From the NCBI GenBank assembly GCA_902524895.1, contig CABZFH010000002.1, forward strand, positions 1 through 64,000: 64,000 nt of DNA. The letters run 5' to 3'. The stretch comes from an uncultured Alphaproteobacteria bacterium. GTDB lineage: Bacteria; Pseudomonadota; Alphaproteobacteria; Methylaequorales; Methylaequoraceae. The notes below the pieces were generated by a model. The model was given only the letters and a program-made list of their open reading frames with translations. It was not told the DNA's origin and ran no database searches. Below are positions 16,356 to 33,709 of the stretch, piece after piece. The position numbers and the translations under genes are program-made. Position 1 is the stretch's first letter; the number at the start of each line of letters is the position of its first letter.

Positions 16356-16371
16356 TGGCATATATTTTGCT
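16356..16371 (+). promoter_or_regulatory. Putative sigma-54 promoter for the lone hook/rod gene
   Basis: The 16-base element TGGCATATATTTTGCT has GG at 16357-16358 and GC at 16369-16370, the 12-base spacing of -24/-12 promoters. The predicted start of transcription is about 16382, right at the ATG at 16383, so the message would be almost leaderless. It closely resembles three other elements in the flagellar block. Confidence 0.7.
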
Positions 16372-16382
16372 GTAAAAAATTT

Positions 16383-17192
16383 ATGAGTATGTTTTCAATT
16401 ATAAAAACAGGCATTGATTCAGCTAATAAAGATATAGCAGTGATATCAAATAATATAGCAAATGCCTCTACAAATGGTTTCAAAAGAAGCGAAGCTCAGT
16501 TCGAAGATATGTATTTTTCCCAACATAATAATTCAACAGAAATAGCTACTGGAATGGGTGTTAAAAACATTAAACCAAGACAATCTTTTTCTCAGGGTTC
16601 ATTTCAACAAACCGGTGGAAGTTTAGACCTCGCAATTATGGGAGAAGGTTTTTTTATATTAGGCGAACCTATTAGTAAAAATGCTCTTGTAAGAGAAAAT
16701 GAAACTTTAAGTTATACTCGAGACGGATCATTTCAAATAGATCAGTTAGGAAATATTGTCAATACAGATGGTCTTCCTATGCTAGGAGAAGGAAAACAAC
16801 CAATAAATGTTCCTGTAACACTTGTAAATAATTTTGGAGATCCAAAAATAATATCTGAAATTCGTGTAGACGATAATGGAACAATTCAGGCAACTTATGG
16901 CTTAGATGATACAAGAATAGTTGGAAAAATTTTATTAGCAGATTTCGTTAATGAACATGGGTTGCAAAATGTTGGGAATGCAAGGTTTGTTGAAACCGGG
17001 GAAAGTGGTGAACCAGTTGAAGGGTTTGCGAAAGAGAGGTCATTGGGAAAGATTCTTCCGGGTGCTCTTGAAAAATCAAACACTGACATTACTGATGAAT
17101 TAGTTACAATGCTGAGAACTCAGCATGCTTTTAGTGGATTTTCTAAAATACTCCAATCAGAAGTTGATACTGTAAAAAGGCTTATAGGCTAA
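16383..17192 (+). CDS. FlgE/FlgG-family flagellar hook or rod protein
   Basis: The 269-residue protein is a flagellar axial protein. The N-terminal motif ISNNIANASTNGFKRSEAQF (residues 22-41) and the GSLDLAIMGEGFFIL segment are shared by FlgE, FlgF and FlgG. The C-terminal part has LEKSNTDITDELVTMLRTQ, but the last helix (HAFSGFSKILQSEVDTVKRL) departs from the usual pattern. Length suits FlgG (about 260), while DDNGTIQATYGLDD and the FGDP stretch look more FlgE-like. A separate FlgE and FlgF exist at 29-34.5 kb and no FlgG is present there, so this may serve as FlgG or as an extra hook-related part. It has its own sigma-54-type promoter and is convergent with the fliA operon. Confidence 0.8.
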   Translation: MSMFSIIKTGIDSANKDIAVISNNIANASTNGFKRSEAQFEDMYFSQHNNSTEIATGMGVKNIKPRQSFSQGSFQQTGGSLDLAIMGEGFFILGEPISKNALVRENETLSYTRDGSFQIDQLGNIVNTDGLPMLGEGKQPINVPVTLVNNFGDPKIISEIRVDDNGTIQATYGLDDTRIVGKILLADFVNEHGLQNVGNARFVETGESGEPVEGFAKERSLGKILPGALEKSNTDITDELVTMLRTQHAFSGFSKILQSEVDTVKRLIG

Positions 17193-17194
17193 AA

Positions 17195-17599
17195 TTAAAA
17201 AAGTGGAATTAACCACTCAATTTTTAAAACTTTTATTTTCGTTTTTTCTTCAACATACAGATATCCCTGATTATTAATCGCTAAACCTTCAGAAATGTGT
17301 AATGTGATTTTCTTTTTTCTAATTGATGAAAATTTGATGTGATTTATTATTTCTTCTATTTTTTTTAATTCATAAAAAACTTTTACCTCCATGAGAGGTT
17401 TGTCTGAAAAAACCAACACCTGATCTTCTTCCTTTTTTTTTTTCTCATTTATAATCAAATTACATCGACCTTTAACTATATTCTCAAAATTACAACTTAA
17501 GACTATTTTGATTGAGTTATCATGAATATGAAGATCTGAGGATAAGATATTTAATATAATTTTATCAAGAATCTTCCAACTATGAGGTAATTTTTTCAT
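17195..17599 (-). CDS. Uncharacterised protein at the end of the flhA-fliA operon
   Basis: The 134-residue protein has no family I recognise. It starts MKKLPHSWKILDKIILNILS and appears as mixed strands and helices without membrane segments or signal peptide. A Lys/Glu run (NEKKKKEEDQV) sits near the middle, and the C-terminal half reads like beta strands. Its start overlaps the end of fliA by 20 bases, indicating translational coupling and a role linked to flagellar assembly, motility control or chemotaxis. Its stop lies three bases from the convergent hook/rod gene. It is probably a real gene because of the overlap, the full-length open frame and the compact context. Confidence 0.65.
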   Translation of the reverse strand: MKKLPHSWKILDKIILNILSSDLHIHDNSIKIVLSCNFENIVKGRCNLIINEKKKKEEDQVLVFSDKPLMEVKVFYELKKIEEIINHIKFSSIRKKKITLHISEGLAINNQGYLYVEEKTKIKVLKIEWLIPLF

Positions 17600-18293
17600 T
17601 GATTATTTTTCTTAATTTTTCAACAATAGCTTTTTTAATTTGAGAAATCCTACCAGTACTTATTTGAAGAATATCTGCAATTTCATAAACGTTCAATTCT
17701 TCAACATAATAAAGTTGCGTTACCATAATTTCTCTTTGATTAAGATTTTTTAAAGCATTTTTAAGAAGATTTTTCATTTCAAGGTCAGAAAATTGCTCTT
17801 CCGGGTTTGTATTATTCGATGCAAATAAAATTGAAAATTCATCATAAATCTCATCTAAACTTTGAACTTTATTAGCTTGAAAAGCATTTTCCCAATAACT
17901 AAATTCTTCGTTAGTAATACCAAGATGTTTAATTAATTCCGCTTTGGTTGGTTCTTTGCTTAGCTTATTCAATAAAAAATTATAAGCTGAATCAAACTCT
18001 TGTTTTTTTTTAATAGTTGTTCTACATAAATTTGAATTTTTTCTTAAATAATCTATTATTGATCCCCGTATTCTCAGATAAGCATATTGTGTAAAATCAA
18101 CACCTTCTTTACTTGTGTATTTTTGTGCTGCTTGAATGAGACCTTCCATTCCCTGCTGAATTAAATCCTCAATTTCAACAACATTATTAACTTTTCCAAA
18201 AATCTGCCAGGCAATTTTTTTTACCAGATCAAGATTATTTTTAACCAGTTTTTCAATTTTATTTTCATGACTTTCATTATAATAAGAGTTCAT
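17580..18293 (-). CDS. fliA: RNA polymerase sigma factor FliA (sigma-28)
   Basis: FliA directs transcription of late flagellar genes and is held inactive by FlgM until the hook is complete. The 237-residue protein has region 2 (VEIEDLIQQGMEGLIQAAQKY, then VDFTQYAYLRIRGSIIDYLR). The region 3 helix-turn-helix reads SKEPTKAELIKHLGI, and region 4 has LNVYEIADILQISTGRISQIKKA. The RGSIIDYLR stretch is typical of FliA, in place of the RGAMLDELR form. It follows flhG by three bases in the operon flhA-flhF-flhG-fliA, the order found in Vibrio-type flagellar systems. Its cognate anti-sigma gene flgM is at 25444. Confidence 0.93.
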   Translation of the reverse strand: MNSYYNESHENKIEKLVKNNLDLVKKIAWQIFGKVNNVVEIEDLIQQGMEGLIQAAQKYTSKEGVDFTQYAYLRIRGSIIDYLRKNSNLCRTTIKKKQEFDSAYNFLLNKLSKEPTKAELIKHLGITNEEFSYWENAFQANKVQSLDEIYDEFSILFASNNTNPEEQFSDLEMKNLLKNALKNLNQREIMVTQLYYVEELNVYEIADILQISTGRISQIKKAIVEKLRKIINEKITS

Positions 18294-18296
18294 TCT

Positions 18297-19094
18297 TTAT
18301 GCTCTTTTCTTTTTACCTAATGAAAAACTTAGTCCCCCCCATTCATTTTGAGGAGTTTTTAAAATTTCGCTAGCTATTTTTTTAAAAGAAAATGAAATAT
18401 CAGAATTAGGGTCAGTTATAATTAGTGGTTTTCTATTGATAATAGAGTCCTTCACTTTTTTTGAATTATTTAAACTACCAACATAATGAAGTTTAACGTC
18501 AAGAAATTTTGAGGTTATTATTTCAAATCTTTTAAATAAATCTTTACCTATTTTAGAATTCTCAACTTGATTTACCAAGATGCAAAAATTCTTAAATGAT
18601 GATTTTTGATAAATTGTTTTTATTAGTGAATAAGAATCTACAAAACTTGTTGGTTCACCGACTATAATAACTACAATTCTTCCGCATGCATTAGCAAAAA
18701 CAACAGTATTATCTTCTGCGCCAGCGGCAACATCAACAATCAGTTTTACTTTTTCATAATTTTTCAAATAGTCATCTATTTCATTCAATACTCTAAATCT
18801 TTTTTTATTTTCCAAGTTTAACAGATCAGAGGTTGCAGAACCTCCTGAAACTAATTCTATTCCATAATCTGTTTTTACTACTATTTCACTAATTTTTTTA
18901 TTTCCATTTATTACACTTGATAAATTATTTGTTGGATTTACTCCTAATAAGACATGTGAATTAGCCATACCAAGATCAGTATCTAAAAGTAAGACTTTAT
19001 TTTGAAGTTTTTGGAAAGCAATTGACAAATTTACTGATACAGTTGTTTTGCCAACTCCGCCTTTACCACTTGTTATAGCAACTGAATCAGACAC
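18297..19094 (-). CDS. flhG: Flagellar number regulator FlhG (MinD-like ATPase)
   Basis: FlhG (FleN, YlxH) is a MinD/ParA-type ATPase that limits the number of polar flagella, working with FlhF. The deviant Walker A motif SGKGGVGKTTVSVN is at about residues 8-21, the switch I region has DTDLGMANSHVLLG, and the VDVAAGAEDN segment matches switch II. The protein starts almost directly at the Walker strand, so the DQAxxLR activation helix found at the N-terminus of many FlhG proteins is not visible. The C-terminus is basic. It overlaps flhF by eight bases and precedes fliA. The assignment is strong from sequence plus order. Confidence 0.92.
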   Translation of the reverse strand: MSDSVAITSGKGGVGKTTVSVNLSIAFQKLQNKVLLLDTDLGMANSHVLLGVNPTNNLSSVINGNKKISEIVVKTDYGIELVSGGSATSDLLNLENKKRFRVLNEIDDYLKNYEKVKLIVDVAAGAEDNTVVFANACGRIVVIIVGEPTSFVDSYSLIKTIYQKSSFKNFCILVNQVENSKIGKDLFKRFEIITSKFLDVKLHYVGSLNNSKKVKDSIINRKPLIITDPNSDISFSFKKIASEILKTPQNEWGGLSFSLGKKKRA

Positions 19095-20229
19095 CTTGAA
19101 AATTTTCTTTCATATATTTAGTAAGAGAATTCTCAGAAGCAGGTAAAATTGAATCTATAATAACCTTCGTACCAGTGAATAATCCAATTCTAGCTTTATT
19201 AAAAGCTAATGTTGATAATTCTTCTGCACCAGTCCAACATTCATCCAACTTCGTAATTGCAACCATGGGCTTAATACCAGAAACTTGTTTCCAAATATTG
19301 TTAATCATAGTGGCGTTAGAACCACTTTGAATTGATAGTATAGAACAAAAATCAAAATCTTTATAATTATTTTTTATATGGTCTATTTTAGATAAACTAA
19401 AATTCAAATCTCCTGAAAAATCAAAAATATTTATGCCTTCGTTTTGAGTTTTAGAAAATTGAAAATTATTAAAATTTATTAACTTAAAACCTAAAACTCT
19501 ACTGTAAGCACGTAAAACCTCTGAATTATTAGTCGAGGCGTTAGAAACTTCGATAAAGTTAACATTACATTTTTTTTCATCTGAAATATATGAAGCTAGC
19601 TTTGCTGATAAAGTAGATTTTCCAGAACCTGAATTTCCAAATATGAATATATTTTTTGAATTAAACAATCTTTGGAAATCTAAAGAAGCGAGTTTTTTTG
19701 ACATTTCTCTAAAAAAAGATATTTTTCCTTCTTCTAAATTTTTTCCTTGAAAGGTATAGTTTAATTCATTGATAATAGTATTTGAAAATCCGCTCTGAGC
19801 AAGTTTTACTGGAGTCGATGCAGAAAGACTATCGCATAAACTAGACTCATTAGTTAAAAACATTCCATAAAGTTGTTTTTTTATATCTTTTATTTCTTTT
19901 TTAAGATTATTAAATTCTTCATAAAATTCATTTTTATAAGAATATTTTGTTGTTTTACTGTCTATTTTAGATTGAGTTCTAATTTCCTTTTTATTTGCAA
20001 TCTTTAAATCTTTATTTTCCAACTTTTTTAAGAATATCTTTGAAAAAGCTTTATTTTCTTGGTTATTTCTTGGGAATGAAGTCAAAATATTATTATCATT
20101 TGAAGCTTCAATCTCAACCAAACCGTTATTTTTTTTTGTTGAAAGTATAATTGCATCATTACCAAATTCTTCAGTAACTTTACTAATAGCTGACTTAACG
20201 TCTTTTGCCTTAAACAGTTGCGTTGTCAT
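19087..20229 (-). CDS. flhF: Flagellar biosynthesis GTPase FlhF
   Basis: FlhF is an SRP-type GTPase that sets the polar site of the flagellum. The N-terminal start (TTQLFKAKDVKSAISKVTEEFGNDAIILSTKK in outline) is the family hallmark. A poorly conserved Lys/Asn-rich linker covers about residues 40-150. The GTPase domain has the G1 motif FGNSGSGKSTLSAKLA near residue 190, a D-x-x-G (DFSG) at G3 and TKLDECWTGAE at G4. The G1 and G3 sequences are less standard than in Vibrio or Bacillus FlhF. At 380 residues it is of ordinary length. It overlaps flhA by 20 bases and has its own good ribosome binding site inside flhA. Confidence 0.92.
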   Translation of the reverse strand: MTTQLFKAKDVKSAISKVTEEFGNDAIILSTKKNNGLVEIEASNDNNILTSFPRNNQENKAFSKIFLKKLENKDLKIANKKEIRTQSKIDSKTTKYSYKNEFYEEFNNLKKEIKDIKKQLYGMFLTNESSLCDSLSASTPVKLAQSGFSNTIINELNYTFQGKNLEEGKISFFREMSKKLASLDFQRLFNSKNIFIFGNSGSGKSTLSAKLASYISDEKKCNVNFIEVSNASTNNSEVLRAYSRVLGFKLINFNNFQFSKTQNEGINIFDFSGDLNFSLSKIDHIKNNYKDFDFCSILSIQSGSNATMINNIWKQVSGIKPMVAITKLDECWTGAEELSTLAFNKARIGLFTGTKVIIDSILPASENSLTKYMKENFQGV

Positions 20230-22348
20230 TTTGTCTCTCCTTTTTTTCGGTTAGTATTTTTTCACCAATTGTGGCAATTACCTTTATTTTTTTTGTTTCC
20301 GGTAATTCTGTAAATGCTAGAACAACAACATCCTCGATGTGTTGTCTTAATAAAATAGATAAATCTTTTCTTATAACAGGTGATGTTACTACTACAGCAG
20401 TTTTATTTTCCGCAGACATTTTCTCATTAATATCGATAATAGATTGAATAATTTGTTTTGCTAAACTTGGATCTATTAACAAACCCTCAGAACTACTTTT
20501 CTGTGCCATGGAAATTAACATCTGTTCAAAATCTGCATTAAATGTGCTAACATTCAATGGTTCATTAATCTTAGAAATCCTTTGAATTAAAAGTGAAGTA
20601 ATAGCAGGTCTTACAGCTTCAGATAATTCTTCAGGATTCATTTTTTTTTCTGCCAAATTAGATAACGCCTCTAGTATTTTTTTTAGATCATTGATCGGCA
20701 CTCTTTCAACCAGTAAATTTCTTAATATAATGGTTAAATGGTGTAATGGTACTAATTTAGGTACCACTGATTGCACCAACTGTGGACTAGATTTTGATAA
20801 ATTGTCCAATAAAAACTGAACATCATCTTGACTAATTAATTCTCCTGCAAATTTGATTAAAATTTGATTTAAATGTGTTCCAATTACAGCCTCAGGATCA
20901 ATTACCATGTAATGATTATTTTCAGCTTTAGAAATTAAATGTTTCTCAATCCAATATGCTTTCATACCAAAACTTGGATCAAGTGTTTCAATACCCTGAA
21001 TATTTATTTGAGTTTCATCACTAGGCATTGCAAGTTTTCTATCGGGATAAATTTTATCCTGTGCTACGATTGTATGTCCGATTCTTATAACATATGTATT
21101 CGCATCTAGCGTGAGGTCATCTTTTACTCTTACATGTGGTAAAACAAAACCAAGCTCCTTAGATACCTGTTTTCTAATTCCTGTGATTTTTGAAATTAAT
21201 GGGCCGTTTGATTTTTTATCGTTGGAGTCTACTAGTGAAATAAGTCCATATCCTAAATCTAGTGAAATAGCAGAATTGTCTGCGACATCATCAACATCAA
21301 TTTTTTCAGGGTTTTCATCAGTTTGATCTTTATTTTCTGAATCCTTGTCAAATGACTTTTCACTTTTTTTACCAATCCGCCACGCAAAAAGTCCAGCTAT
21401 TGCTCCAGCAATTAAAAATAAAGCATTAGGCATACCAGGAACTAGACCAAATAAAAACAACACTCCAGAAACAGGAATCCATGCTTTTGACATTCCCATT
21501 TGATTAGATATTTGACCTGACAAATCATTCTCATCTGAACCTATTCTCGTTACTATGGTCGCAGTAGCTAATGCTAATAATAAAGAAGGTATTTGTGCAA
21601 CCAATCCGTCACCAACTGTGAGCAAAATATATTTTTCTGCAGATTCATCAAGTGATAAATCGTGTTGAACAGATCCAATTATCAAACCTCCAATTATATT
21701 AATTATTAAAATTAGTATACCGGCAATTGCATCTCCTTTTACGAATTTTGCTGCTCCGTCCATTGCACCATAAAACTCACCTTCTTTAGATAAATCCTTT
21801 CTTCTAGCCTTTGCTTCATCACTGGTGATAATACCTGCATTCAAATCAGCATCAACAGCCATTTGTTTGCCTGGCATTGCATCTAAAGTGAATCTTGCTG
21901 CTACTTCTGATACTCTACCAGCACCCTTAGTAATAACAATTAAGTTAATTATTACAAGGATACTAAATACAAATAAACCAACAACATAACTTCCCGACAT
22001 AACAAATGCACCAAAAGCTTCAATTATGTTTCCAGCAGCATCAGTTCCAGTATGACCATTACTTAGAATTACTCTTGTTGAGGCGACATTAAGTCCAAGT
22101 CTTAAAACAGTAGCAAACAAAAGTACTGTTGGAAAACTTGAAAAATCAAGTGGTCTAAAAGCTTGTAAAGCCACCATCAATACAAGCAACGATACTAAGA
22201 TATTGGTTGTAAATAAAAGATCTAATATAACTGGACTGAGAGGAATTACCATCATGCCCACAAGAATCATTATACCTAAAGGGATACTAAAAGTTTTTAC
22301 TAAATAATTTAAACTTTTTCTATTGAATGAATTTAATGTTAATTCCAT
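20210..22348 (-). CDS. flhA: Flagellar export gate protein FlhA
   Basis: FlhA is the large component of the flagellar type III export gate in the inner membrane. The 712-residue protein has about eight hydrophobic segments in residues 20-330. It carries the conserved loop AARFTLDAMPGKQMAVDADL near residue 150 and EGEFYGAMDGAAKFVKGDA further on. An acidic linker lies near 335-365, and the cytoplasmic domain has LDPSFGMKAYWIE and the AEVIGTHL-like segment (here PEAVIGTHLNQI). It is the first gene of the leftward operon flhA-flhF-flhG-fliA. A sigma-54-type element about 130 bases upstream probably drives it. Confidence 0.97.
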   Translation of the reverse strand: MELTLNSFNRKSLNYLVKTFSIPLGIMILVGMMVIPLSPVILDLLFTTNILVSLLVLMVALQAFRPLDFSSFPTVLLFATVLRLGLNVASTRVILSNGHTGTDAAGNIIEAFGAFVMSGSYVVGLFVFSILVIINLIVITKGAGRVSEVAARFTLDAMPGKQMAVDADLNAGIITSDEAKARRKDLSKEGEFYGAMDGAAKFVKGDAIAGILILIINIIGGLIIGSVQHDLSLDESAEKYILLTVGDGLVAQIPSLLLALATATIVTRIGSDENDLSGQISNQMGMSKAWIPVSGVLFLFGLVPGMPNALFLIAGAIAGLFAWRIGKKSEKSFDKDSENKDQTDENPEKIDVDDVADNSAISLDLGYGLISLVDSNDKKSNGPLISKITGIRKQVSKELGFVLPHVRVKDDLTLDANTYVIRIGHTIVAQDKIYPDRKLAMPSDETQINIQGIETLDPSFGMKAYWIEKHLISKAENNHYMVIDPEAVIGTHLNQILIKFAGELISQDDVQFLLDNLSKSSPQLVQSVVPKLVPLHHLTIILRNLLVERVPINDLKKILEALSNLAEKKMNPEELSEAVRPAITSLLIQRISKINEPLNVSTFNADFEQMLISMAQKSSSEGLLIDPSLAKQIIQSIIDINEKMSAENKTAVVVTSPVIRKDLSILLRQHIEDVVVLAFTELPETKKIKVIATIGEKILTEKKERQNDNATV

Positions 22349-22464
22349 GACATCACTTTCAAGTCAAAAAAATGACATATTTTTTTATAAGTATCGATTA
22401 AATAGCCATTTATCTGATTTTTTTCATTTTTATTTAAATTAAAATTTTTCATAGAACTTTAAGA

Positions 22465-22480
22465 TGCAACAGATATGCCA
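22465..22480 (-). promoter_or_regulatory. Putative sigma-54 promoter for flhA-flhF-flhG-fliA
   Basis: Read on the minus strand the element is TGGCATATCTGTTGCA, the closest of the four to the -24/-12 consensus TGGCAC-N5-TTGCA, with GG and GC exactly 12 bases apart. Transcription would begin near 22454, giving a leader of about 105 bases before the flhA start at 22348. Confidence 0.75.
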
Positions 22481-22516
22481 AATATGTTTTTAATGTTTAG
22501 AAGCTATATTTAAAGA

Positions 22517-22532
22517 TGGCATATTATATGCA
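22517..22532 (+). promoter_or_regulatory. Putative sigma-54 promoter for the flgP-flgT operon
   Basis: The element TGGCATATTATATGCA has GG at 22518-22519 and GC at 22530-22531. It lies about 36 bases from the opposing flhA element and forms a divergent pair with it. The predicted transcription start near 22543 leaves a 25-base leader before the ATG at 22568. That start would exclude the longer reading frame beginning at 22541. Confidence 0.7.
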
Positions 22533-22567
22533 TAAATTTTATGAACTTAAATTTAAGGACATTAAAA

Positions 22568-23068
22568 ATGAGAAAAATAATTTTAGTACTTACACTTTTT
22601 ATAATGCAATCATGTGCCGGAGCTGGAAATTTTTTAGAGCAATTCACTCAAAACGAATCTTTTTCTAGTAATGAAACAAACACTCCTACAGCACAATTAA
22701 ATAAAACTAAAGAAATACTAGATGCCTCAAGCATTACGTTTCCAACCCTTACTGCCACTGGTTATGCAGTCGTATCTAGTCAACCCGGTCAAAGTATAGA
22801 ACAGAAAAGATTAATGGCTATAAGGGCTGCAAGAATGGCTGCAATACGTGAACTAGCTGAGCAAATACACGGTCTAAAAGTTGATAGTAATACAACTGTT
22901 ATTGATTTAATGGTTCAAAATGACACTTTTAGGGGTATTGTTAGCGGAGTTATAAGAGGCGCAAGAACTGTAAGAATTAATCCAACTGGATCAGATACAT
23001 ATGAAACCGTTTTAGAAATTGACCAAGATATGGTTGCATACTTATTTAGAACAGCTCAATCATTGTAA
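22568..23068 (+). CDS. flgP: FlgP-like outer membrane lipoprotein (LPP20 family)
   Basis: FlgP is an outer membrane lipoprotein that forms a disk around the base of polar flagella in Vibrio and Campylobacter. The 166-residue protein has a short lipoprotein signal with Cys at about residue 16 (LFIMQSC), then a linker. The LPP20/FlgP domain reads ATGYAVVSSQPGQSIEQKRL, and later RAARMAAIRELAEQIHGLKV and RGIVSGVIRGARTV. The ATG at 22568 is preferred over one at 22541. It follows an AAGGA ribosome site by about eight bases, begins the signal peptide, and lies downstream of the predicted transcription start. It heads the rightward operon with flgT. Confidence 0.85.
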   Translation: MRKIILVLTLFIMQSCAGAGNFLEQFTQNESFSSNETNTPTAQLNKTKEILDASSITFPTLTATGYAVVSSQPGQSIEQKRLMAIRAARMAAIRELAEQIHGLKVDSNTTVIDLMVQNDTFRGIVSGVIRGARTVRINPTGSDTYETVLEIDQDMVAYLFRTAQSL

Positions 23069-23089
23069 TATAAGAAAAAGGAAAAAAAC

Positions 23090-24268
23090 TTGAAAAATTT
23101 TTCTTACAACCCTTTTGATAGATTAATAAAAAAAGCTCTCATTATTTTCTGGGGAGTTATAGCTACGTTATTTTTAGGCATTAACTTTGCTTTTGCAAGT
23201 GAGAATACTGTAAAAATGGTTTTTACTTCAGGAAGAGCAATAATAGTAGACGGAAAAAAAGAAATTGCGAAAAAAAGAGCTCTGGATGAAGCACTGTATT
23301 TAGCCAGTTTACAAGGTGGAGCAAAAGTAGATGGATTTTCAAGTATTGATACCAAAACTCGTCTCAATGAGAATCTTGTAATCCGACCTGCCTCAGAAAT
23401 AATAGATTTTAAAGTACTCAACGAAAACTCTGATTTAACTCATTATGAAGTAAAAATACAAGCAGCATTATTACAAAAAAATGTAAATTTAAAATGTGAT
23501 AGCACTAGAATTAATAATATTTCTTTTCTACAACCTCATTATATAATTTCAAGTAATTCTCCTGCATGGACTCATCATTTACCAATTTTAATATCTTCAA
23601 TAATACTCAAAAACCTTAAAAACCTGAAAGATCTAAAAATGAGTGACAAAAGAGATTTTTTCATTGATCCTGAGAATATGAAAAAGATTAAAAATGAACT
23701 TAATTACGAAGCGTTAACTGAAAAAACCTTGTATATAAAAAATGGGGAGTTTAGCATCATACCTGTAATTAATATATCTAGAGCTTTATCAAGATTACAT
23801 AGATTTAGTGAAGAATTAGTTTTTTCAATAGATTTGCTACTATATGAAGGGCCTGATTACAATTTTGTAGATTCATTTAATTATAATTTTTCTCTGAATT
23901 TAGGAAATCACACTGGGTATGAAGGTTTGGATAGTTTTTATAGTGTATCAAAATCAAAAATAATAGAGTATTTAGATTTAAGTTTATCAAAATACCACTT
24001 CAGAATTCATGACACAATGAAATGTTTACCTTTGGAAACTGAGCTGATTTACTCAAACGAAAAATTGATTGCCAATTTAGGTACAAATCAAGGGTTGTAT
24101 AGGGGAAAAATAGGTTTAATTTCAACAAGAAACCCAGATAATTCTATGGAAAACTGGTCTGTGATGAGTGTTGTAAGTTCTGATTTAGATGCTTCCATTT
24201 TAGAACCTTTGAATCCAAACATAGATTTGATTGATTTAAATGGTAAATTAATTAGATTTTTAAATTAA
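23090..24268 (+). CDS. flgT: FlgT-like flagellar assembly (H-ring) protein
   Basis: The 392-residue protein has a signal peptide (hydrophobic stretch about residues 17-36, ending AFA-S). A FlgT N-terminal domain follows: FTSGRAIIVDGKKEIAKKRA, then DEALYLASLQGGAKVDGFSS. In Vibrio FlgT forms the periplasmic H ring around the basal body. The middle domain is less conserved. The C-terminal domain (ANLGTNQGLYRGKIGLIS) resembles the FlgT C-terminal region. The start is TTG, with an AAAAAGG ribosome site about 8 bases upstream; no in-frame ATG would keep the signal peptide. It lies 21 bases after flgP. The family call rests mainly on the N-terminal domain and context. Confidence 0.82.
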   Translation: MKNFSYNPFDRLIKKALIIFWGVIATLFLGINFAFASENTVKMVFTSGRAIIVDGKKEIAKKRALDEALYLASLQGGAKVDGFSSIDTKTRLNENLVIRPASEIIDFKVLNENSDLTHYEVKIQAALLQKNVNLKCDSTRINNISFLQPHYIISSNSPAWTHHLPILISSIILKNLKNLKDLKMSDKRDFFIDPENMKKIKNELNYEALTEKTLYIKNGEFSIIPVINISRALSRLHRFSEELVFSIDLLLYEGPDYNFVDSFNYNFSLNLGNHTGYEGLDSFYSVSKSKIIEYLDLSLSKYHFRIHDTMKCLPLETELIYSNEKLIANLGTNQGLYRGKIGLISTRNPDNSMENWSVMSVVSSDLDASILEPLNPNIDLIDLNGKLIRFLN

Positions 24269-24278
24269 AGGATAAAAT

Positions 24279-24701
24279 ATGATGAAGTTTTTTAAGTTTT
24301 TATATTTACTAGGTTTATTAAATTTTGCGGCTAATGTAAATGCAATAGAACCGTTTGTCGTTCTTGATTATAATAATTATAGTCATTCAGACGACGTGGA
24401 CCAAAACAATGCGTTTTTAAGAGACTCTAGTTATTCTACAACCCATCTTGTTGAAATAGGAGATTCTTTGTCGGGAATTATAAATAAATATTATAAAAAT
24501 ACCGGTTTCAATATGAGAATTGTTGAAATTTCAATTTTAGAAATAAATAAAAAGGCGTTCGTGAGAAATAATCCAAATTATTTATTTGCAGGCAAAACAT
24601 TAAAAATACCATCTGTAAATGAAATGATGAATTTAGTAAAAAAAGGTACTAAAAAAAATCAAAATAGTGGAAAACATATATATTTTTTTGGTGGTTTTTA
24701 A
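24279..24701 (+). CDS. Small exported LysM/FimV-like domain protein
   Basis: The 140-residue protein has a signal peptide (residues 1-22, ending VNA). An acidic linker follows, then one LysM-like domain at about residues 56-112: HLVEIGDSLSGIINKYY, ILEINKKAFVRNNP and LFAGKTLKIPS. The spacing with the FNMRIVEISILEINKKAF insert looks like the FimV-type LysM variant, which binds peptidoglycan. The C-terminal tail is basic and short. It sits between flgT and flgA, overlapping flgA by one base, so it is probably made with the basal body. Peptidoglycan anchoring of the periplasmic rings is an inference; no named flagellar protein matches it in my memory. Confidence 0.75.
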   Translation: MMKFFKFLYLLGLLNFAANVNAIEPFVVLDYNNYSHSDDVDQNNAFLRDSSYSTTHLVEIGDSLSGIINKYYKNTGFNMRIVEISILEINKKAFVRNNPNYLFAGKTLKIPSVNEMMNLVKKGTKKNQNSGKHIYFFGGF

Positions 24702-25411
24702 TGCTGATTATAAGAATCTTATTATTTTTATTTTTACTTGCTCCTCTAAACGCAATTTTTTCAAATGAACTAAGTGGTGTCGAAATCACAAAGATTGTGT
24801 CGGTTTGGCTTTCTGAAAAAAATAAAGCATCAAATATAAATATTCTACCTGAAAAAAAATATCCAGAATGTATAGATTTAAAAATTAGAAATATTTCAAC
24901 TGACTTTTCATTGCTAAAAATCAATTGTCAAAAACCAACGCAATGGAGTTTTATTTTGAGAAATAAAATAAAACAAGTTAAAAAAAAAAATAATGAAAAG
25001 AAAAAAATAAGTAAAAATCTTGTAAAGTATCTTACCTTCAACTCTGATATGCCAAAAGGAAGTATTGTAAAAGATGATGATTTAATTTTTTTAAAAAAAA
25101 ATATTTCTAACTCAAGAAATTTGATTGTTGATAAAAAAGATATATTAGGTAAAAAATTAAAAAGAACTATTAGATTCCACACTCCAATTTATGCCAATAA
25201 TCTTGAAAAAGAGTGGTTAATCAGAAAAAATGACGAAGTAACAATAGAAAATAACTTAGGAAGTGTTATAATTAAAGTTGAGGGTATTGCCCTAGAAGAT
25301 TCAGATTATATGGAAAAAATTAAGGTTAAAAATATTTCTAGTGGTCAAATTGTTAATGCTTATGTTAAAAATAGAAAAAAAGTTGTAATTAATCCTAAAC
25401 AATTCAGATAG
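24701..25411 (+). CDS. flgA: Flagellar P-ring assembly chaperone FlgA
   Basis: FlgA is a periplasmic chaperone for P-ring formation by FlgI. The 236-residue protein has a signal peptide (about residues 1-20). A weakly conserved N-terminal domain with two Cys residues follows, then a Lys-rich linker near residues 88-105. The SAF/FlgA domain has DMPKGSIVKDDDLIFLK and ILGKKLKRTIRFHTPIYANNL. The C-terminal strand region matches too: NDEVTIENNLGSVIIKVEG, then SSGQIVNAYVKNRK. Length is usual. It overlaps the LysM gene by one base and precedes flgM by 32 bases, an order close to the Vibrio flgM-flgA neighbourhood. The flgI target is outside the window. Confidence 0.88.
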   Translation: MLIIRILLFLFLLAPLNAIFSNELSGVEITKIVSVWLSEKNKASNINILPEKKYPECIDLKIRNISTDFSLLKINCQKPTQWSFILRNKIKQVKKKNNEKKKISKNLVKYLTFNSDMPKGSIVKDDDLIFLKKNISNSRNLIVDKKDILGKKLKRTIRFHTPIYANNLEKEWLIRKNDEVTIENNLGSVIIKVEGIALEDSDYMEKIKVKNISSGQIVNAYVKNRKKVVINPKQFR

Positions 25412-25443
25412 TATGTCGATATATATAAATAAGGAATAAAATA

Positions 25444-25755
25444 ATGGTAGATCAAATTAAAAACAATATTTCTTCATCAACAAAATCTGTCTCTCAGACA
25501 AATTCATCTGGTGAATCAAATAAAACTCCAACTTCATCGACGAAGATTACTCAAAAAAATGATCAATCTAGTCAAAATTCAACTAATATTTCTAAATTTA
25601 TTAGTAAAGAAGCAATTAAAGATATGGCCGTTCAACCACCTATTGATAAAGAAAAAGTTAGTAGAATTAAAAATGCTATTGCTAACAATAATTATCCTAT
25701 TGATTTAGAAAAAATTTCTGATGCATTAATGGATGCCTACAAAGAGATGAAATAA
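25444..25755 (+). CDS. flgM: Anti-sigma-28 factor FlgM
   Basis: FlgM binds FliA and is exported through the finished hook, releasing late gene expression. The 103-residue protein has a disordered Ser/Thr/Asn-rich N-terminal half. The C-terminal FlgM motif reads DKEKVSRIKNAIANNNYPID, then LEKISDALMDAYKEM. An AAGGA ribosome binding site lies about 7 bases before the ATG. It follows flgA. Its partner fliA is at 17580-18293 in the divergent operon, and both would be under sigma-54-type promoters. The assignment is firm. Confidence 0.9.
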   Translation: MVDQIKNNISSSTKSVSQTNSSGESNKTPTSSTKITQKNDQSSQNSTNISKFISKEAIKDMAVQPPIDKEKVSRIKNAIANNNYPIDLEKISDALMDAYKEMK

Positions 25756-25780
25756 AATCTAATTTGTGTTATTCTAAATC

Positions 25781-26047
25781 ATGCAGAATAACAATTTCAA
25801 CGACCTTTTAGATTTATTTGATAATTTACTAACTTGTGACTTTAGAGATTCACAAAATATTCAAAAAACAATTATTAGTAAAATCGATGAGCTCAAAATA
25901 GATTTGAAATCAAATAAACTTGATAAAGAAGATATAGTTCAATTATCTAAAAGAGTTGATAAATTAATTAAATCTAAAGAATTAAAGCATAAAAAAGATT
26001 TCATAATTTTTGAAGAATTTAAAAATTATTTAGAGAAAAAAACTTAA
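25781..26047 (+). CDS. Small helical protein downstream of flgM (FlgN position)
   Basis: The 88-residue acidic/basic protein is predicted to be almost wholly helical (MQNNNFNDLLDLFDNLLTCD; LSKRVDKLIKSKELKHKKDF). It has no signal peptide or membrane segment. It lies 25 bases after flgM and 20 bases before the DUF2802-like gene. In many systems the export chaperone FlgN follows flgM and is also a small helical protein, but usually about 140 residues. I see no clear FlgN motif, so a chaperone role is a guess from position and helical content. It is likely a real gene because of the tight operon context. Confidence 0.6.
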   Translation: MQNNNFNDLLDLFDNLLTCDFRDSQNIQKTIISKIDELKIDLKSNKLDKEDIVQLSKRVDKLIKSKELKHKKDFIIFEEFKNYLEKKT

Positions 26048-26067
26048 ATTTCTTTTATAATAGATTC

Positions 26068-26493
26068 ATGGATTCAATATCGTTATTTTTTGAAGAAAAC
26101 CCTCAGAAGTTTTTTGCATATGCATTGATGGCTATTTCACTTATCTCAATATTTTTTATTAGTTTATCTTTTTATTATGATAATTTAAAAAAAAAAGAGC
26201 TTTTAAAAAAATTTACTACTTTTGATAGGTCACTGAAAGATCTTGTTGAAGAATTTCGATCCTTTGAATTAATGTTTAGTGAACAAAAAAAATCATTTGA
26301 AGAATATAAATTTGTAATCAACAGGATTGAACAAGAGATTTCCAGACTAGCAGATTCTCTGAGTAATGAAAAAAATATTACATCCGCCATTTCACTTGCA
26401 AAAGAAGGTTATTCTGTATTAGAGATTTCAGAAAAAACTGGTATACCAAAAGAAGAAATTGAACCGATTGTAAAATATCATGGTTCGAATTAA
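26068..26493 (+). CDS. DUF2802-like membrane-anchored coiled-coil protein
   Basis: The 141-residue protein has one N-terminal membrane segment (about residues 17-37). A long charged coiled-coil (about 45-105) follows, then a small C-terminal helix-turn-helix-like motif: AISLAKEGYSVLEISEKTG, then IPKEEIEPIVKYH. This layout matches DUF2802 proteins encoded in flagellar/chemotaxis loci of gammaproteobacteria, and resembles SwrB of Bacillus, which helps activate the flagellar export apparatus. It ends the rightward operon starting at flgP. An assembly-control role at the inner membrane is inferred from these likenesses. It is convergent with the charged protein gene at 26509. Confidence 0.7.
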   Translation: MDSISLFFEENPQKFFAYALMAISLISIFFISLSFYYDNLKKKELLKKFTTFDRSLKDLVEEFRSFELMFSEQKKSFEEYKFVINRIEQEISRLADSLSNEKNITSAISLAKEGYSVLEISEKTGIPKEEIEPIVKYHGSN

Positions 26494-26508
26494 CATTTAC
26501 AATAAATT

Positions 26509-27438
26509 TTATTTTTCTTCTATTTTTACTTTTTCTTCGTGAATTTTTAGTAAATCAGCTTCATCTTTATTTATTTCGTTTTCTTTTTCAGTATTATTAA
26601 TACTAGATTTAGGAGTTATATTATCTAAATTTTCATCAGTTGCACTCTCATCATTCTTCTGTTCGGTTTTTTCAATTATATCCTTTTCATCTTTTTTTAA
26701 TTGGACATCCTGAACCTTAATTTTTTCATCGTCATTATCTTTATTTAGTTTTTCCTCTCCATTCTTTGTTATTTTTTCTTCATTAGAATTTTTTTCGTTT
26801 TCTTTTTTTCTATCAATTTTACTTTCATCATCTTTTTTTTCTAAATTATTATTTTCTAATTTTTTTTCATCTTCATTTTTGGATTTATCATTTAAATTTG
26901 ATTCTGAATCTTTGTTTTGATCAAGAAGCTTTTCTTCTTTCTGTTCACTTTTAACCTCTTGGTTTAATTTGTTATCTTTTTTTATTTCTTCTTTATCTAA
27001 AGCTTGTTTTTGGTCATTTATATTAATTGGGATAGCCTTTTTATTTTCAATTAGTTTTTGTGCATCAATCTTTGATACATCCAATATAACCCCCTTATCA
27101 ATTTGTTTTCCATTTACTTCTGAAGGCTCAAGCATTTCCAATTTAACCCAATCTTCTTGTTTTTTTTCGGGTACCTTTGGTTCTTCAGAAACATTTTTAG
27201 TTTCAATTTTTTTAAATTTTTTTGGTACCCTTGTTTCGTATAATTCTTCAATTCTTAATCTTATAATTTTAACTCTTGCTGCTAATGCACCTAGTCGGGT
27301 AATTTCATCCATTTGTCCGTTTAATAATTTTTTTATAATTGCATTAACTTCTTCCAATGGTTTATTACCAATTTTTTTTATTATTTGGTCTCTAACCTTT
27401 GAAACCTCTGGATCTGGCTCGTAATTAAAATTATTCAT
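26509..27438 (-). CDS. Charged low-complexity protein divergent from flgB
   Basis: The protein is 309 residues when started at the ATG at 27436-27438. That start has an AAAGG ribosome site and fits the 67-base gap to flgB; a longer frame to 27633 would run through the flgB promoter and gene. Residues 1-75 look like a compact helical domain (PDPEVSKVRDQIIKKIG; ITRLGALAARVKIIRLRIEE). About residues 90-150 contain a Val/Leu-rich segment with VKLEMLEPSEVNG. The last 150 or so residues are an Asp/Glu/Lys/Asn-rich, probably disordered or coiled tail. No family is recognised. Divergence from flgBCDEF and placement inside the flagellar block suggest a motility link. Confidence 0.65.
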   Translation of the reverse strand: MNNFNYEPDPEVSKVRDQIIKKIGNKPLEEVNAIIKKLLNGQMDEITRLGALAARVKIIRLRIEELYETRVPKKFKKIETKNVSEEPKVPEKKQEDWVKLEMLEPSEVNGKQIDKGVILDVSKIDAQKLIENKKAIPININDQKQALDKEEIKKDNKLNQEVKSEQKEEKLLDQNKDSESNLNDKSKNEDEKKLENNNLEKKDDESKIDRKKENEKNSNEEKITKNGEEKLNKDNDDEKIKVQDVQLKKDEKDIIEKTEQKNDESATDENLDNITPKSSINNTEKENEINKDEADLLKIHEEKVKIEEK

Positions 27439-27455
27439 TTTTTTATACCTTTCTT

Positions 27456-27471
27456 TGGCATTCAATTTGCA
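27456..27471 (+). promoter_or_regulatory. Putative sigma-54 promoter for flgBCDEF
   Basis: The element TGGCATTCAATTTGCA has GG at 27457-27458 and GC at 27469-27470. Transcription is predicted from about 27482, giving a 24-base leader to the flgB ATG at 27506. It lies inside the 67-base gap between the divergent charged-protein gene and flgB. Confidence 0.75.
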
Positions 27472-27505
27472 ATTTCTAAACCAAATTGAACTTTTTTTTA
27501 AGAAT

Positions 27506-27895
27506 ATGACAAATAGTATTAAACAACAATTCGAAGTATTTAGCAAAGCACTAGAAATACGAAATAGAAAAAATGAAATTCTGGCTTCAAATATTGCAAA
27601 TGCGGCAACACCTAATTTTAAAGCAAGAGACATAACATTTGAAACAGAGTTAGCGAGATCTTTAAGTTCTGGGCCTTTAAATTCAACTAATAATATGCAT
27701 TTCAGTGTGGCGTCTAAAAGCCTTCCAGGAAAAGTTCAGTATAGACAATCTTTAAATCCTTCAATGGATGGAAATACAGTTGAACTTGCTGTTGAACAAA
27801 TGGAATTTGCAGAAAATGCGGTCAGATATCAAACTACATTGAGTTTTATAAATGGAAAATTACAAGGATTAATGAGTGCTATAAGGGGTGAATAA
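27506..27895 (+). CDS. flgB: Flagellar basal-body rod protein FlgB
   Basis: FlgB is a proximal rod component. The 129-residue protein has the N-terminal signature EILASNIANAATPNFKARDI about 25 residues after the start. The C-terminal helix is TVELAVEQMEFAENAVRYQT, giving the normal FlgB length. The ATG at 27506 is preferred because it aligns with other FlgB proteins, follows an AAGA site and is downstream of the predicted sigma-54 transcription start. An upstream ATG at 27455 overlaps the promoter itself. flgC begins at its stop codon. It opens the flgBCDEF operon. Confidence 0.93.
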   Translation: MTNSIKQQFEVFSKALEIRNRKNEILASNIANAATPNFKARDITFETELARSLSSGPLNSTNNMHFSVASKSLPGKVQYRQSLNPSMDGNTVELAVEQMEFAENAVRYQTTLSFINGKLQGLMSAIRGE

Positions 27896-28308
27896 TGGAA
27901 ATTAAAAATATTTATAACATTACAAAACGAGCAATGGGTGCACAATTAGTTAGATTAAATGCAATTGCAAGTAATTTAGCCAATGCTGATAATATTGCAA
28001 GTAATCCAAAAGATGCTTATAAGCCTATAAAGCCGGTTTTTGAAACTCAATACATGGATATAATCAGAAAAAGGGGAATTTCTACTGTGGATGCTGTAAC
28101 AGTTAAACAGATGGATATTGAACCAATTAAAGAATACAAACCCGGTCATCCTCTTGCCGATCAGGAAGGTTTCATTTACAAGGCTCCTGTCAATGCTGAA
28201 GAAGAGTATGTTGAAATGCTTGAGGCCTCAAGACAATATCAAAATAATGTAGAAGTAATTACAACCATAAAAGCACTTATGATGAAAACAGCTAATTTAG
28301 GAAAATAA
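27895..28308 (+). CDS. flgC: Flagellar basal-body rod protein FlgC
   Basis: FlgC is a proximal rod protein. The 137-residue sequence has the N-terminal heptad region with LNAIASNLANADNIASNP, a core with YKPIKPVFE, and the C-terminal motif NAEEEYVEMLEASRQYQNNV followed by EVITTIKALMMKTANLGK. Its start overlaps the flgB stop by one base. The family is clear and the order flgB-flgC-flgD-flgE is standard. It is exported by the flagellar type III system and needs no cleaved signal. Confidence 0.95.
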   Translation: MEIKNIYNITKRAMGAQLVRLNAIASNLANADNIASNPKDAYKPIKPVFETQYMDIIRKRGISTVDAVTVKQMDIEPIKEYKPGHPLADQEGFIYKAPVNAEEEYVEMLEASRQYQNNVEVITTIKALMMKTANLGK

Positions 28309-28323
28309 AATAGGAGAATATAT

Positions 28324-29031
28324 ATGACAGATGTAACAAAAACCTCAGATCAATCCTTAAATAATATTCTGGATAAGTTAGGAATAAATTCTTCAGATGA
28401 AAAAAAAAGTATAAAAAAAGATTCTTCTGTATTAGGACAAGCAGAATTTTTAAAATTGATGACAGCGCAACTTCAGAATCAGGATCCATTTTCTCCAATG
28501 GATAATGGTGACTTTATTGCACAGATGGCACAATTTTCTACTGTTACAGGAATAACAGAGATTAATAATAATTTAACTACCCTAGGTGAGCGTTTAGAAC
28601 CAAATAGAATTGCTACAGCAGCTTCATTTTTAGGTACGTCTGTGTTGGTACCTGGACAAACAGTTACTCCAGATGATAATGGACAAATCCATGGTGTTAT
28701 TGATTTACCTGCATCCTCAAATAATGTTGGTTTAACAATTTCAAATTCCAAAGGAGAAATTGTTCATACTATTGATTTAGGTTCACAAAAGAAAGGTCTC
28801 ATAGGATTTAGCTGGGCTAACATACCTGAAGATATCTTGAAATCTAATCAAAAACTTTCTCTACAGGCATTTGCTGGTAATGGGAATGCTACTAACGGGT
28901 TAACTACAGCTGTTTATAACAAAGTAATTGCAGCATCTACACCAAAGAATTCAGAAGATGTTCTTTTAGAATTAAAAGACTTTGGAGAAATTTCAGCTTC
29001 AGAAGCACTTAAACTCAAAACAAATGATTAA
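28324..29031 (+). CDS. flgD: Flagellar hook assembly scaffolding protein FlgD
   Basis: FlgD is the temporary hook cap that allows FlgE to polymerise. The 235-residue protein has the conserved N-terminal region LGQAEFLKLMTAQLQNQDPF then SPMDNGDFIAQMAQFSTVTG, and a C-terminal FlgD Ig-like/tudor domain with VDLPASSNNVGLTISNSKGE. A GGAG ribosome site precedes the ATG. The protein is of typical length even though its partner FlgE is exceptionally large, so the cap itself shows no obvious matching enlargement. It lies between flgC and flgE in the operon. Confidence 0.95.
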   Translation: MTDVTKTSDQSLNNILDKLGINSSDEKKSIKKDSSVLGQAEFLKLMTAQLQNQDPFSPMDNGDFIAQMAQFSTVTGITEINNNLTTLGERLEPNRIATAASFLGTSVLVPGQTVTPDDNGQIHGVIDLPASSNNVGLTISNSKGEIVHTIDLGSQKKGLIGFSWANIPEDILKSNQKLSLQAFAGNGNATNGLTTAVYNKVIAASTPKNSEDVLLELKDFGEISASEALKLKTND

Positions 29032-29047
29032 ATAGAGGAGTAAAAAT

Positions 29048-32000
29048 ATGTCATTTTATACAGCATTAACAGGACTAAATGGTTCACAATCAGATATATC
29101 TGCAACTTCAAATAATATTGCTAACGTAAACACAACTGGTTTTAAAAGATCCCGAGCAGAATTTGGTGATATTTTTGCTACCTCTCCTCTTCAGAATGCA
29201 TCATCGTCTATTGGTTCTGGTACAATTCTTAAAGGTGTAAAACAACAGTTCACTCAGGGAAATATTAGTTCTTCTCTAAATGCATTAGACTTAGCAATTT
29301 CAGGTCAAGGATTTTTTGCTCTCCAACCCTCTTTGACATCAACACAAACTGTATATACGCGAAATGGCTCATTTAACGTTAATAATGATAGATATGTTGT
29401 TGATTCATCTGGACAGTTCGTTTTGGCATATCCGGTTAATGCCGACGGATCTGTGACCGCTAAAGATTTAGTAAGTGCTAACCCACTTCAACTCCCAATT
29501 ACTTCTGGAACTCCTCAAGCAACATCTGCTATTGATTTAGGTGTTAACGTTCCAGCAACGGCTGAAGTTATTCCTGAAAAAGCACAATTTGCATCTGGTT
29601 ATGCGTTTAATGCTAATGATCCAGAAACCTATAATAATTCAACATCTATAACAATCTTTGATGATTTAGGTAACCCAACAATTGCTACAATTTTTTTCAT
29701 AAGAACTCAAGCAGCTTCAGCTGCAGATCCTACTAATAAATTTGAAACTAGATTGGTTATTAATGATACTGTAATTGAACCTGATTTAGTTCCCGCTGTT
29801 AGTGATACAAAACAACAAATATTTATTGATAGATTTGGTCAACAAACAACCTCTGTTCCTGACGATAACTACTTTTTGGAAGGAAAAGGTTCACCTCTTC
29901 ATAAATTAGATGATTTAAGAACACTTGTTGATTCAACTCCTGCGTCAATCAGAGGTGAAACTAGTGCATTCGATTTTGGTGATGAGGGTGATAAAACTGT
30001 AACAATTGTTACGGATCCAGTTCAATTTAATTCAACTAGAGAAAGTGGTGATACTACATCAAATGTTTATTGGGGTACAAATTTCTTAACAATCAACGTA
30101 GATAATGCAGATACACCTATTAACGTGGACATTAGACCTGGATCTTACAACGCCACACAGCTTTCTACAGAAATTCAAAGAGCAGTAAATGCTGCATATG
30201 GTGATGATAAAAAAATACAAATTGTAAGAAATGTCGATGATACTATATCAATTGATTTATTAAAACTTAATGCAGACGGAACTTCTACTGGACTTACAAC
30301 ACCAATATCAGTAGATCTACTTTCAGATTCATATGTGTCAGATGTTGAAGGAATTACCCTTACAGGTGTTTCACCTGACTTTACAAAAGATCAATTTTTA
30401 GCACACGTTCAAGCAAGAATAAACTCAACTCTAAATGAATATGCAGTCGATTCTACTGATTCTGTTCAAAGCGCAACTGCTTTGGGAGTGAATTCAGCTT
30501 TATTTGCAAGAAATGTGGGTTCAGCTATGTCAACTGTACTGAATCAAAATCAAGTTTTTAATCTCACATATAGAGATGGTGGAAGTGCGGCTGCAGGTTC
30601 AGTCACCGCGGTTACAGAAGCGGCGAAATATTTAACATATTCGTACTATCAAAATAGTCCCCAATTAAATGTTTATGATTCAAAAAATGCCGTATCAGCT
30701 AATAATAGTAGCAATACAATTGAATATTCACATACTGAAAATACTGTTAAAATTTATTTTGGCTCCAGTGATCCTGGATTTACAGTGAATGAAAAAGTAA
30801 GAGTGATGGGTTTATTTGATGAATCAGCTACTGAAACTACAAATGGCGCATTTCTAAACGGAAGAGAGTTTACTGTCTCATCTCAATCAACCGATGCAAA
30901 TGGAAACTTCTTCATTCAAGCTAGTACCTCTGGAATGAGTTTTCCAGATTCAAGTTTTAATCTATCAGAAACAAATGTTAATGTTTATAGCGACTTGTCT
31001 ACTTCGGTTGAAGGCTTTTTTGAAGGAGCAGATAATGTTTACAAGGATGCAACAGTAAACTTTAGTAATAAAAAAATTGTTCTAAGAGAAATTGGTACAT
31101 CAAATAAACATTCATACACCAATGATGATATTATTGGTTTCTCAGGAGAGGGTATAATTGGTGTAGACAGTGCAGAATTTAATTTAACAAATGCAGACGG
31201 TACTCATTTAGATTCAATGTCGACAGCTGGTTTTTCACCAACCGCTTTAACTCTTGATACAACAAGTGCAAGTGTTGTAAGTACGGCTAATGAAACATTT
31301 ACATCAACTGCGCACGGATTTGTAACTGGAGATACTTTGGTATATAAATCTGGTGATATTTTTGATGTCGTGGCTGGCTCTGGTGGAGGAACTTCAAGAA
31401 CGGTCAATACAACAAGTAACTCTGTTGTATCAGCAGCAAACGATACCATCGTTCAAGCAAACATTGCCGCTTTAACAGAAGGTTCAGCAGTGGTTTATAA
31501 TGCAGCAGGAACAGGATCTGCAGTTACTATTGACACTACAGCTCCAGTAAATAATGTGATTTCTCATACATCAGCTCATGGTTTTAGTACTGGTGATGCC
31601 GTTACCTATTCTGCAAGTGGTACAGCTTTAACTGGTTTGACTGATGCTACAACTTACTTCGTTATTAAAGTTGATAATAACAGTTTTAAACTTGCTACAA
31701 GTTATGAAAATGCAACAGGAAAAACACAAGCTGCAATTACGTTAACAGCAACAAACGGTTCAACTACAGATTCTTTTACTCCAAAAAGTAATCTATCAGG
31801 TCTTCAACATGGAAGAACTTATTATGTTGCTGATCCTGATGGAAGTTCAGCTTTTAAGTTGGCGGAAACCTATGCTGATGCAACTGCATCAACTGCAAGA
31901 GTGATAGATTTAGCTTTGAGTGGTGGTAATGCGTCAGATGCGTTTATACCAACATCTGATCATACAGATTTGAATCATGGAAGAACATATTATGTAATTA

Positions 32001-33691: not shown

Positions 33692-33709
33692 TACTGTAGG
33701 TAATTTATT

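Follow-up and report, generated by a model that had tools for sequence, protein, structure and literature searches.

Which promoters and regulators drive the flagellar genes of an uncultured alphaproteobacterium, and where do its transcripts begin relative to the start codons? The question is raised by the first 64,000 nucleotides (nt) of contig CABZFH010000002.1 (assembly GCA_902524895.1, family Methylaequoraceae), hereafter the window, in which a block of flagellar genes is preceded by four matching −24/−12 elements of the sigma-54 (RpoN) type. The explanation judged best, and highly probable as a whole, is that all four act as true sigma-54 promoters in a flagellar regulon of gamma type, similar to the Fla1 regulon of Rhodobacter (Cereibacter) sphaeroides and governed by a FleQ-like protein, and that this family also has start-codon-aligned sigma-54 promoters predicted to give leaderless transcripts.

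Sigma-54 elements in the window and the genome

Exact matches to TGGCAYN6TGC were found at four positions in the window, compared with a mean of 0.24 in shuffled sequence (n=100 shuffles, none of which reached four). All four are TGGCAY...TTGC-like, with a GG-to-GC spacing of 12.

16356 to 16370, + strand: sigma-54 −24/−12 element TGGCATATATTTTGC, ATG 12 nt after GC, predicted leaderless; kept in 15 relatives with an ATG at 11–14 nt
22466 to 22480, − strand: sigma-54 element TGGCATATCTGTTGC of the flhA operon; kept in 16 relatives
22517 to 22531, + strand: sigma-54 element TGGCATATTATATGC, predicted leader of ~24 nt with AAGGA
27456 to 27470, + strand: sigma-54 element TGGCATTCAATTTGC of the flgB operon, predicted leader of ~24 nt

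An initial annotation of this DNA had given the coordinates, strands and sequences of these elements correctly to within one base, and its description of elements lying in gaps, with GG and GC 12 bases apart, also holds; all four are directly upstream of flagellar genes. Its assignment of one element to each transcription unit stands for the four flagellar operons but not for a minus-strand open reading frame (ORF) at 26509–27438, which has no element in its own direction. The elements are kept upstream of the orthologous genes in the relatives fetched (up to 16). The distance from GC to the start codon is uneven, with an ATG 12–13 nt after GC at the 16356 and 22480 elements and predicted leaders of ~24–25 nt at the remaining two (22517 and 27456). 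The sequence AAATTCCAAACCAAA, at 27471–27485 directly after the flgB promoter, is common to most relatives.

A strict pattern search was run on the whole assembly (1.43 Mb, 84.5 % complete) with the reversed pattern as control. There were 20 matches compared with two for the control; approximately 13 of the 20 were in gaps that precede flagellar, flagellin, surface-modification or nitrogen genes, with the remainder inside genes. Flagellar targets, for which as for the others several gene names were assigned by eye, comprised the FlgE/F/G-family gene at 16383, flhA, the LPP20 unit, flgB, the gene in the fliK position, the unit after flhB and flagellin. The other targets were a lytic-transglycosylase gene, a 61-amino-acid (aa) ORF adjoining rpoN, an ammonium transporter, glnB, a DegT-type aminotransferase and one gene on contig C7. 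The flagellin gene, at C13:16816 (L026), has both a sigma-54 element and a leader with a Shine–Dalgarno sequence.

Promoter-to-start-codon spacing in the family

The distance d counts the bases that separate the C of GC from the A of the ATG; transcription usually starts 12 nt after this C, so d=11 would place the A at +1. The sample consisted of at least 265 sites from 23 genomes of the family, and the matches listed were chosen without regard to d. Among these matches, d=11, 12 and 13 accounted for 42, 51 and 21 cases, respectively, against an average of 6.75 for each other distance (2–32). The total of 114 at d=11–13 compares with 20 expected among the matches listed (Poisson tail <1e-40, uncorrected for shared ancestry), and when near-identical sites were removed, 107 of the 233 matches listed still fell in the peak. 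Spacer sequence varies and the distance holds, as seen across 15 relatives in front of the FlgE/F/G-family gene.

The gene families with an ATG at d=11–13 number approximately ten and are unrelated to one another; among them are GlnB, lytic transglycosylase, DegT aminotransferase, FkbM methyltransferase, other methyltransferases, cysteine-rich FliB-like and GT11-like proteins (by eye), a radical-SAM-like protein (by eye), the gene in the fliK position and the FlgE/F/G-family gene. GlnB provides the firmest anchor for a start because the Pfam P-II model aligns from its first residue. In the fetched DNA, a Shine–Dalgarno sequence was absent from 11 of 11 starts at d=11–12 and present in 18 of 31 at d=25–45. 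ATGs at d=11–13 opened long, real genes at 17 of 20 sampled sites. From this peak, sigma-54 transcription is predicted to start at the start codon and to yield leaderless messenger RNAs (mRNAs). No peak in the spacing between sigma-70 −10 boxes and ATGs was seen in 407 genes (a test with little power), and general leaderlessness is thus not demonstrated.

Two candidate ATGs were rejected, one at C2:108124 (d=10; absent from relatives) and one at C3:154784 (d=11; antisense within a long murC-like ORF). Many relatives also share a second conserved leader, CACTATTTTCAAA..., behind the sigma-54 element that precedes the unit after flhB (C2:108124). Surface or flagellin modification looks common among the start-codon-aligned genes, with FliB-like Cys-rich proteins (by eye), methyltransferases and DegT aminotransferase represented (modification-like loci L135, L137, L138, L140, L141, L144, L147, L151, L152 and L024).

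Alternative readings of the spacing peak and its restriction to the family

The alternative that survives best, although improbable, is an ordinary sigma-54 regulon in which the ATGs at d=11–13 are not real starts and translation begins further downstream, from short leaders. Such a reading draws on the FlgE/F/G-family gene of the window's genus, where a new in-frame ATG at 16383 (d=12) is followed by a second at 16389 (d=18) that is orthologous to the relatives' starts, and on the fact that the transcript 5′ ends are predicted positions. In the relatives, however, that orthologous ATG is itself at d=11–12 (14 in one), a later start in GlnB would lose conserved residues, and the peak spans some ten unrelated gene families.

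Slightly less probable again is that the peak reflects a sequence preference of sigma-54 initiation, or the squeezing of intergenic gaps, rather than leaderless translation. A small genome with short gaps and AT-rich DNA (29 % GC) would favour this, but squeezing should spread the distances broadly instead of producing a 3-nt peak, and leadered promoters in the same genomes (flgB and the FlgP-like unit) have no ATG at this position. The long, real genes opened at most of the sampled ATGs also argue against it, as do other small alphaproteobacterial genomes, which have no peak.

Across 285 alphaproteobacterial genomes from outside the family there was no excess at d=11–13 (964 matches, compared with 955 at the control d=17–19), a class-wide test that is weak for GC-rich genomes because chance matches swamp real sites. 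The four family genomes in that sample gave 22 and 3 matches, respectively. The FlgE/F/G-family gene of a SAR116 relative has kept its promoter, which there comes with a leader and AGGAGA, and thus the close placement looks derived in the window's family. Within the family, rpoN was detected in 19 of 24 assemblies. One genome with no rpoN found (G006) had two of its 17 sites in the peak. Three others with no rpoN found (G009, G020 and G023) nevertheless show it; these assemblies are probably incomplete, since the peak is present and they belong to genera in which rpoN was found.

RpoN and its activators

The initial annotation had made its case depend on rpoN, and an intact copy is present at C2:114604–116055, ~80 kb away on the contig that carries the window (PF04552, E=3e-61; AID, CBD and DBD domains all present), so that the interpretation stands. 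Four enhancer-binding proteins are encoded in the genome: NtrC and NtrX, on contig C4 (best models, with scores slightly under the cut-offs), and a FleQ-like and a FlrC-like protein, whose divergent genes at C2:92.4–94.8 kb adjoin fliEFGHIJ.

C2:92373–93452, − strand: FleQ-like activator with AAA+ and helix-turn-helix domains; best solved-structure match FleQ (E=3.5e-85)
C2:93641–94789, + strand: FlrC-like activator (E=1.7e-79) heading the fliEFGHIJ operon

No N-terminal receiver-like domain was detected in the FleQ-like protein; in the FlrC-like protein, the Pfam scan found no DNA-binding (helix-turn-helix) domain and no receiver domain was detectable. FlrC-like orthologues in ten relatives are about equally short (384–408 codons). 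The gene is followed by fliE, fliF, fliG, fliH, fliI and fliJ (by reading; FliF and FliI confirmed by Pfam).

The proposal that RpoN and an enhancer-binding activator control the flagellum is supported by the intact rpoN and the two flagella-associated activators. For the activator itself, the FleQ type that had been suggested fits the best structure match and the helix-turn-helix domain, and the FlbD type was rejected, with no orthologue carrying a helix-turn-helix domain at the cut-off found in the 84.5 % complete genome. Control by an alphaproteobacterial FlbD-type protein, as in Caulobacter, is therefore very unlikely: FlbD is indeed the best NCBIfam model for the FlrC-like protein, but its 301 bits are far under the cut-off of 750, the protein has neither a helix-turn-helix nor a detectable receiver domain, and several components (the FleQ box, H-ring genes, FlhF/FlhG and FliA/FlgM) are of gamma type. 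Least credible of all, and rejected, is that the elements are chance matches, since even with ~7 of the 20 genome-wide matches inside unrelated genes, the numbers in window and genome far exceed their controls and the elements are conserved across the family.

Nitrogen control of the NtrC type probably depends on this one RpoN too, because sigma-54 elements precede glnB (C6:91982, L019; ATG at d=11, predicted leaderless) and the ammonium transporter (C1:35025, L008; leadered).

The FleQ-type box and the flhA leader

Two features lie between the flhA promoter and its gene or overlap the flhA start.

22363 to 22376, no strand assigned: FleQ-type box GTCAAAAAAATGAC (GTCA-N6-TGAC), ~+78 from the predicted flhA transcription start
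22339 to 22452, − strand: short upstream ORF (37 codons), predicted to be leaderless, with its start 13 nt after GC and an overlap with the flhA start

GTCA-N6-TGAC agrees with the FleQ consensus GTCaNTAAAtTGAC, and Pseudomonas FleQ is reported to act at flhA from near the promoter, with no looping (PMC6120874). Here and in every one of the 16 relatives read, the box lies on the downstream side of the flhA promoter, at +46 to +49 in most relatives and +78 in the window's genus and the next; a SAR116 genome and a Rhodobacteraceae metagenome-assembled genome each have it at +80. Further FleQ-type boxes occur directly upstream of the FleQ-like gene, in the fliN–fliO gap and upstream of rpoN. The last (C2:114513–114526), ~90 bp from rpoN, adjoins a TATAAT-like sequence, and its position suggests that FleQ may control rpoN. 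The box was rejected as a mark of every sigma-54 unit, since the 16356 and 27456 elements have none nearby.

In 14 of 15 relatives the flhA promoter has an ATG at d=12–14 that opens an ORF of 10–38 codons, often ending near or overlapping the flhA start. The peptide is not conserved, and the FleQ box is within or near the ORF. As judged from its sequence, this upstream ORF may be leaderless and couple translation to flhA.

Proposed mechanism

RpoN–RNA polymerase would bind the −24/−12 site and wait. The FleQ-like protein would open the first promoters (one of its boxes follows the flhA promoter, as in Pseudomonas), and the FlrC-like activator without a DNA-binding domain would probably be the partner of FleQ at the other promoters, in the manner of R. 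sphaeroides FleT. FliA/FlgM would then drive a later tier, which the initial annotation had foreseen and which is plausible because both genes are in the window block. At many sigma-54 promoters of the family the transcript would begin 0–2 nt before the AUG, giving a leaderless mRNA translated from its 5′-terminal AUG without a Shine–Dalgarno sequence. It is likely, though with less assurance than for the explanation as a whole, that the family, streamlined and marine, joins activator-dependent sigma-54 initiation to leaderless translation, with promoter position setting the 5′-terminal AUG for flagellar, surface-modification and nitrogen genes and bypassing the Shine–Dalgarno sequence, and with a leaderless upstream ORF delivering ribosomes to flhA through a FleQ-bound leader.

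Several points weigh against this explanation. Sites across relatives are not independent, the transcript 5′ ends are positions predicted from the distance peak, and the FleQ/FleT-like mixed complex is proposed by analogy. Many pattern matches, mostly of the chance kind, are still present in G006, where rpoN was not detected. The FleQ box is not enriched by count (seven places in the genome compared with four for the control), and the genome is incomplete, so another activator could be missing.

Genes of the flagellar block

16383 to 17192, + strand: FlgE/F/G-family rod/hook protein, 269 aa (TIGR03506, 222 bits, above cut-off)
17195 to 22348, − strand: flhA operon, with flhA 20210–22348, flhF 19087–20229, flhG 18297–19094, fliA 17580–18293 and an unknown gene 17195–17599
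22568 to 26493, + strand: H-ring/flgA/flgM unit of seven genes, with LPP20 lipoprotein (FlgP-like) 22568–23068, FlgT-like 23090–24268, LysM-like (by eye) 24279–24701, flgA 24701–25411, flgM 25444–25755, unknown 25781–26047 and DUF2802-like 26068–26493
26509 to 27438, − strand: conserved low-complexity ORF, divergent from flgB
27506 to 34501, + strand: flgB operon, with flgB 27506–27895, flgC 27895–28308, flgD 28324–29031, flgE 29048–33691 and flgF 33710–34501

Pfam matches in the flhA operon were FHIPEP, SRP54, CbiA/ParA and Sigma70_r2/r4. The protein scan gave no family match for the products of 17195–17599 and 26509–27438. The Pfam scan of flgB gave no match, and the gene was called by position, conservation and N-terminus. 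Directly upstream of flgM, at 25396–25421, is a candidate FliA-like promoter, TAAA-N15-GTCGATA (one mismatch). At 1547 aa, FlgE is a very long hook protein whose conserved ends are separated by a large insert. For FlhA, after four alphaproteobacterial loci nearly all next-best matches were gamma- or betaproteobacterial, which supports a gamma-type origin; outside the family, SAR116 AG-390-L20 is the closest relative that has a name.

Comparison with known systems

The closest known system is the Fla1 regulon of R. sphaeroides and not Caulobacter FlbD. In R. sphaeroides, FleQ and sigma-54-2 (RpoN2) drive an operon made up of fleT and fliEFGHIJ, followed by a FleQ/FleT complex and then FliA/FlgM (PMC7277832). 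Shared with that system are rpoN in the flagellar region, a FleQ-like master regulator, a second activator heading fliEFGHIJ, FliA with FlgM, H-ring genes and gamma-like flagellar proteins in an alphaproteobacterium. Here, by contrast, there is one rpoN, apparently serving nitrogen genes too, many promoters are start-codon-aligned, and flagellin has a sigma-54 promoter, whereas flagellin in R. sphaeroides is FliA-driven. The Pseudomonas FleQ regulon (PMC6120874) also has sigma-54 promoters at the same operons and GTCA-N6-TGAC near the flhA promoter (downstream here); what sets the present genome apart is a FleQ-like protein in which no N-terminal receiver-like domain was detected, together with short or absent leaders. 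Caulobacter FlbD/RpoN likewise places alphaproteobacterial flagellar genes under sigma-54, but no FlbD orthologue was found here and the parts are FleQ-type. A FleQ/FleT-type hierarchy, known mainly from R. sphaeroides, would be extended to a marine lineage close to SAR116.

Discussion of leaderless genes usually centres on sigma-70-type −10 boxes adjoining the ORF. Sinorhizobium meliloti leaderless sets all begin with AUG. In Bradyrhizobium japonicum leaderless transcripts have an extended −10, and the study remarks on the lack of described promoters specific to the leaderless type (PMC4842269). In the parts of the open-access literature on leaderless transcripts and sigma-54/RpoN that were covered, no description of start-codon-aligned sigma-54 promoters was found. 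If the arrangement proposed here is correct, an ATP-driven, all-or-none promoter would be usable for leaderless mRNA, and the points at which transcription and translation start across an entire regulon could be read from DNA in uncultured ocean bacteria. The leaderless −10 genes of Deinococcus-Thermus (PMC12340547) and Campylobacter jejuni (PMC3847290) resemble this arrangement in that the transcript begins at the start codon with no Shine–Dalgarno sequence, but their boxes are of the sigma-70 −10 type, in contrast to the activator-dependent sigma-54 element here, whose placement recurs across one family. The regulon itself is of the known Fla1/FleQ type; the added novelty is the family-wide occurrence of start-codon-aligned sigma-54 promoters.
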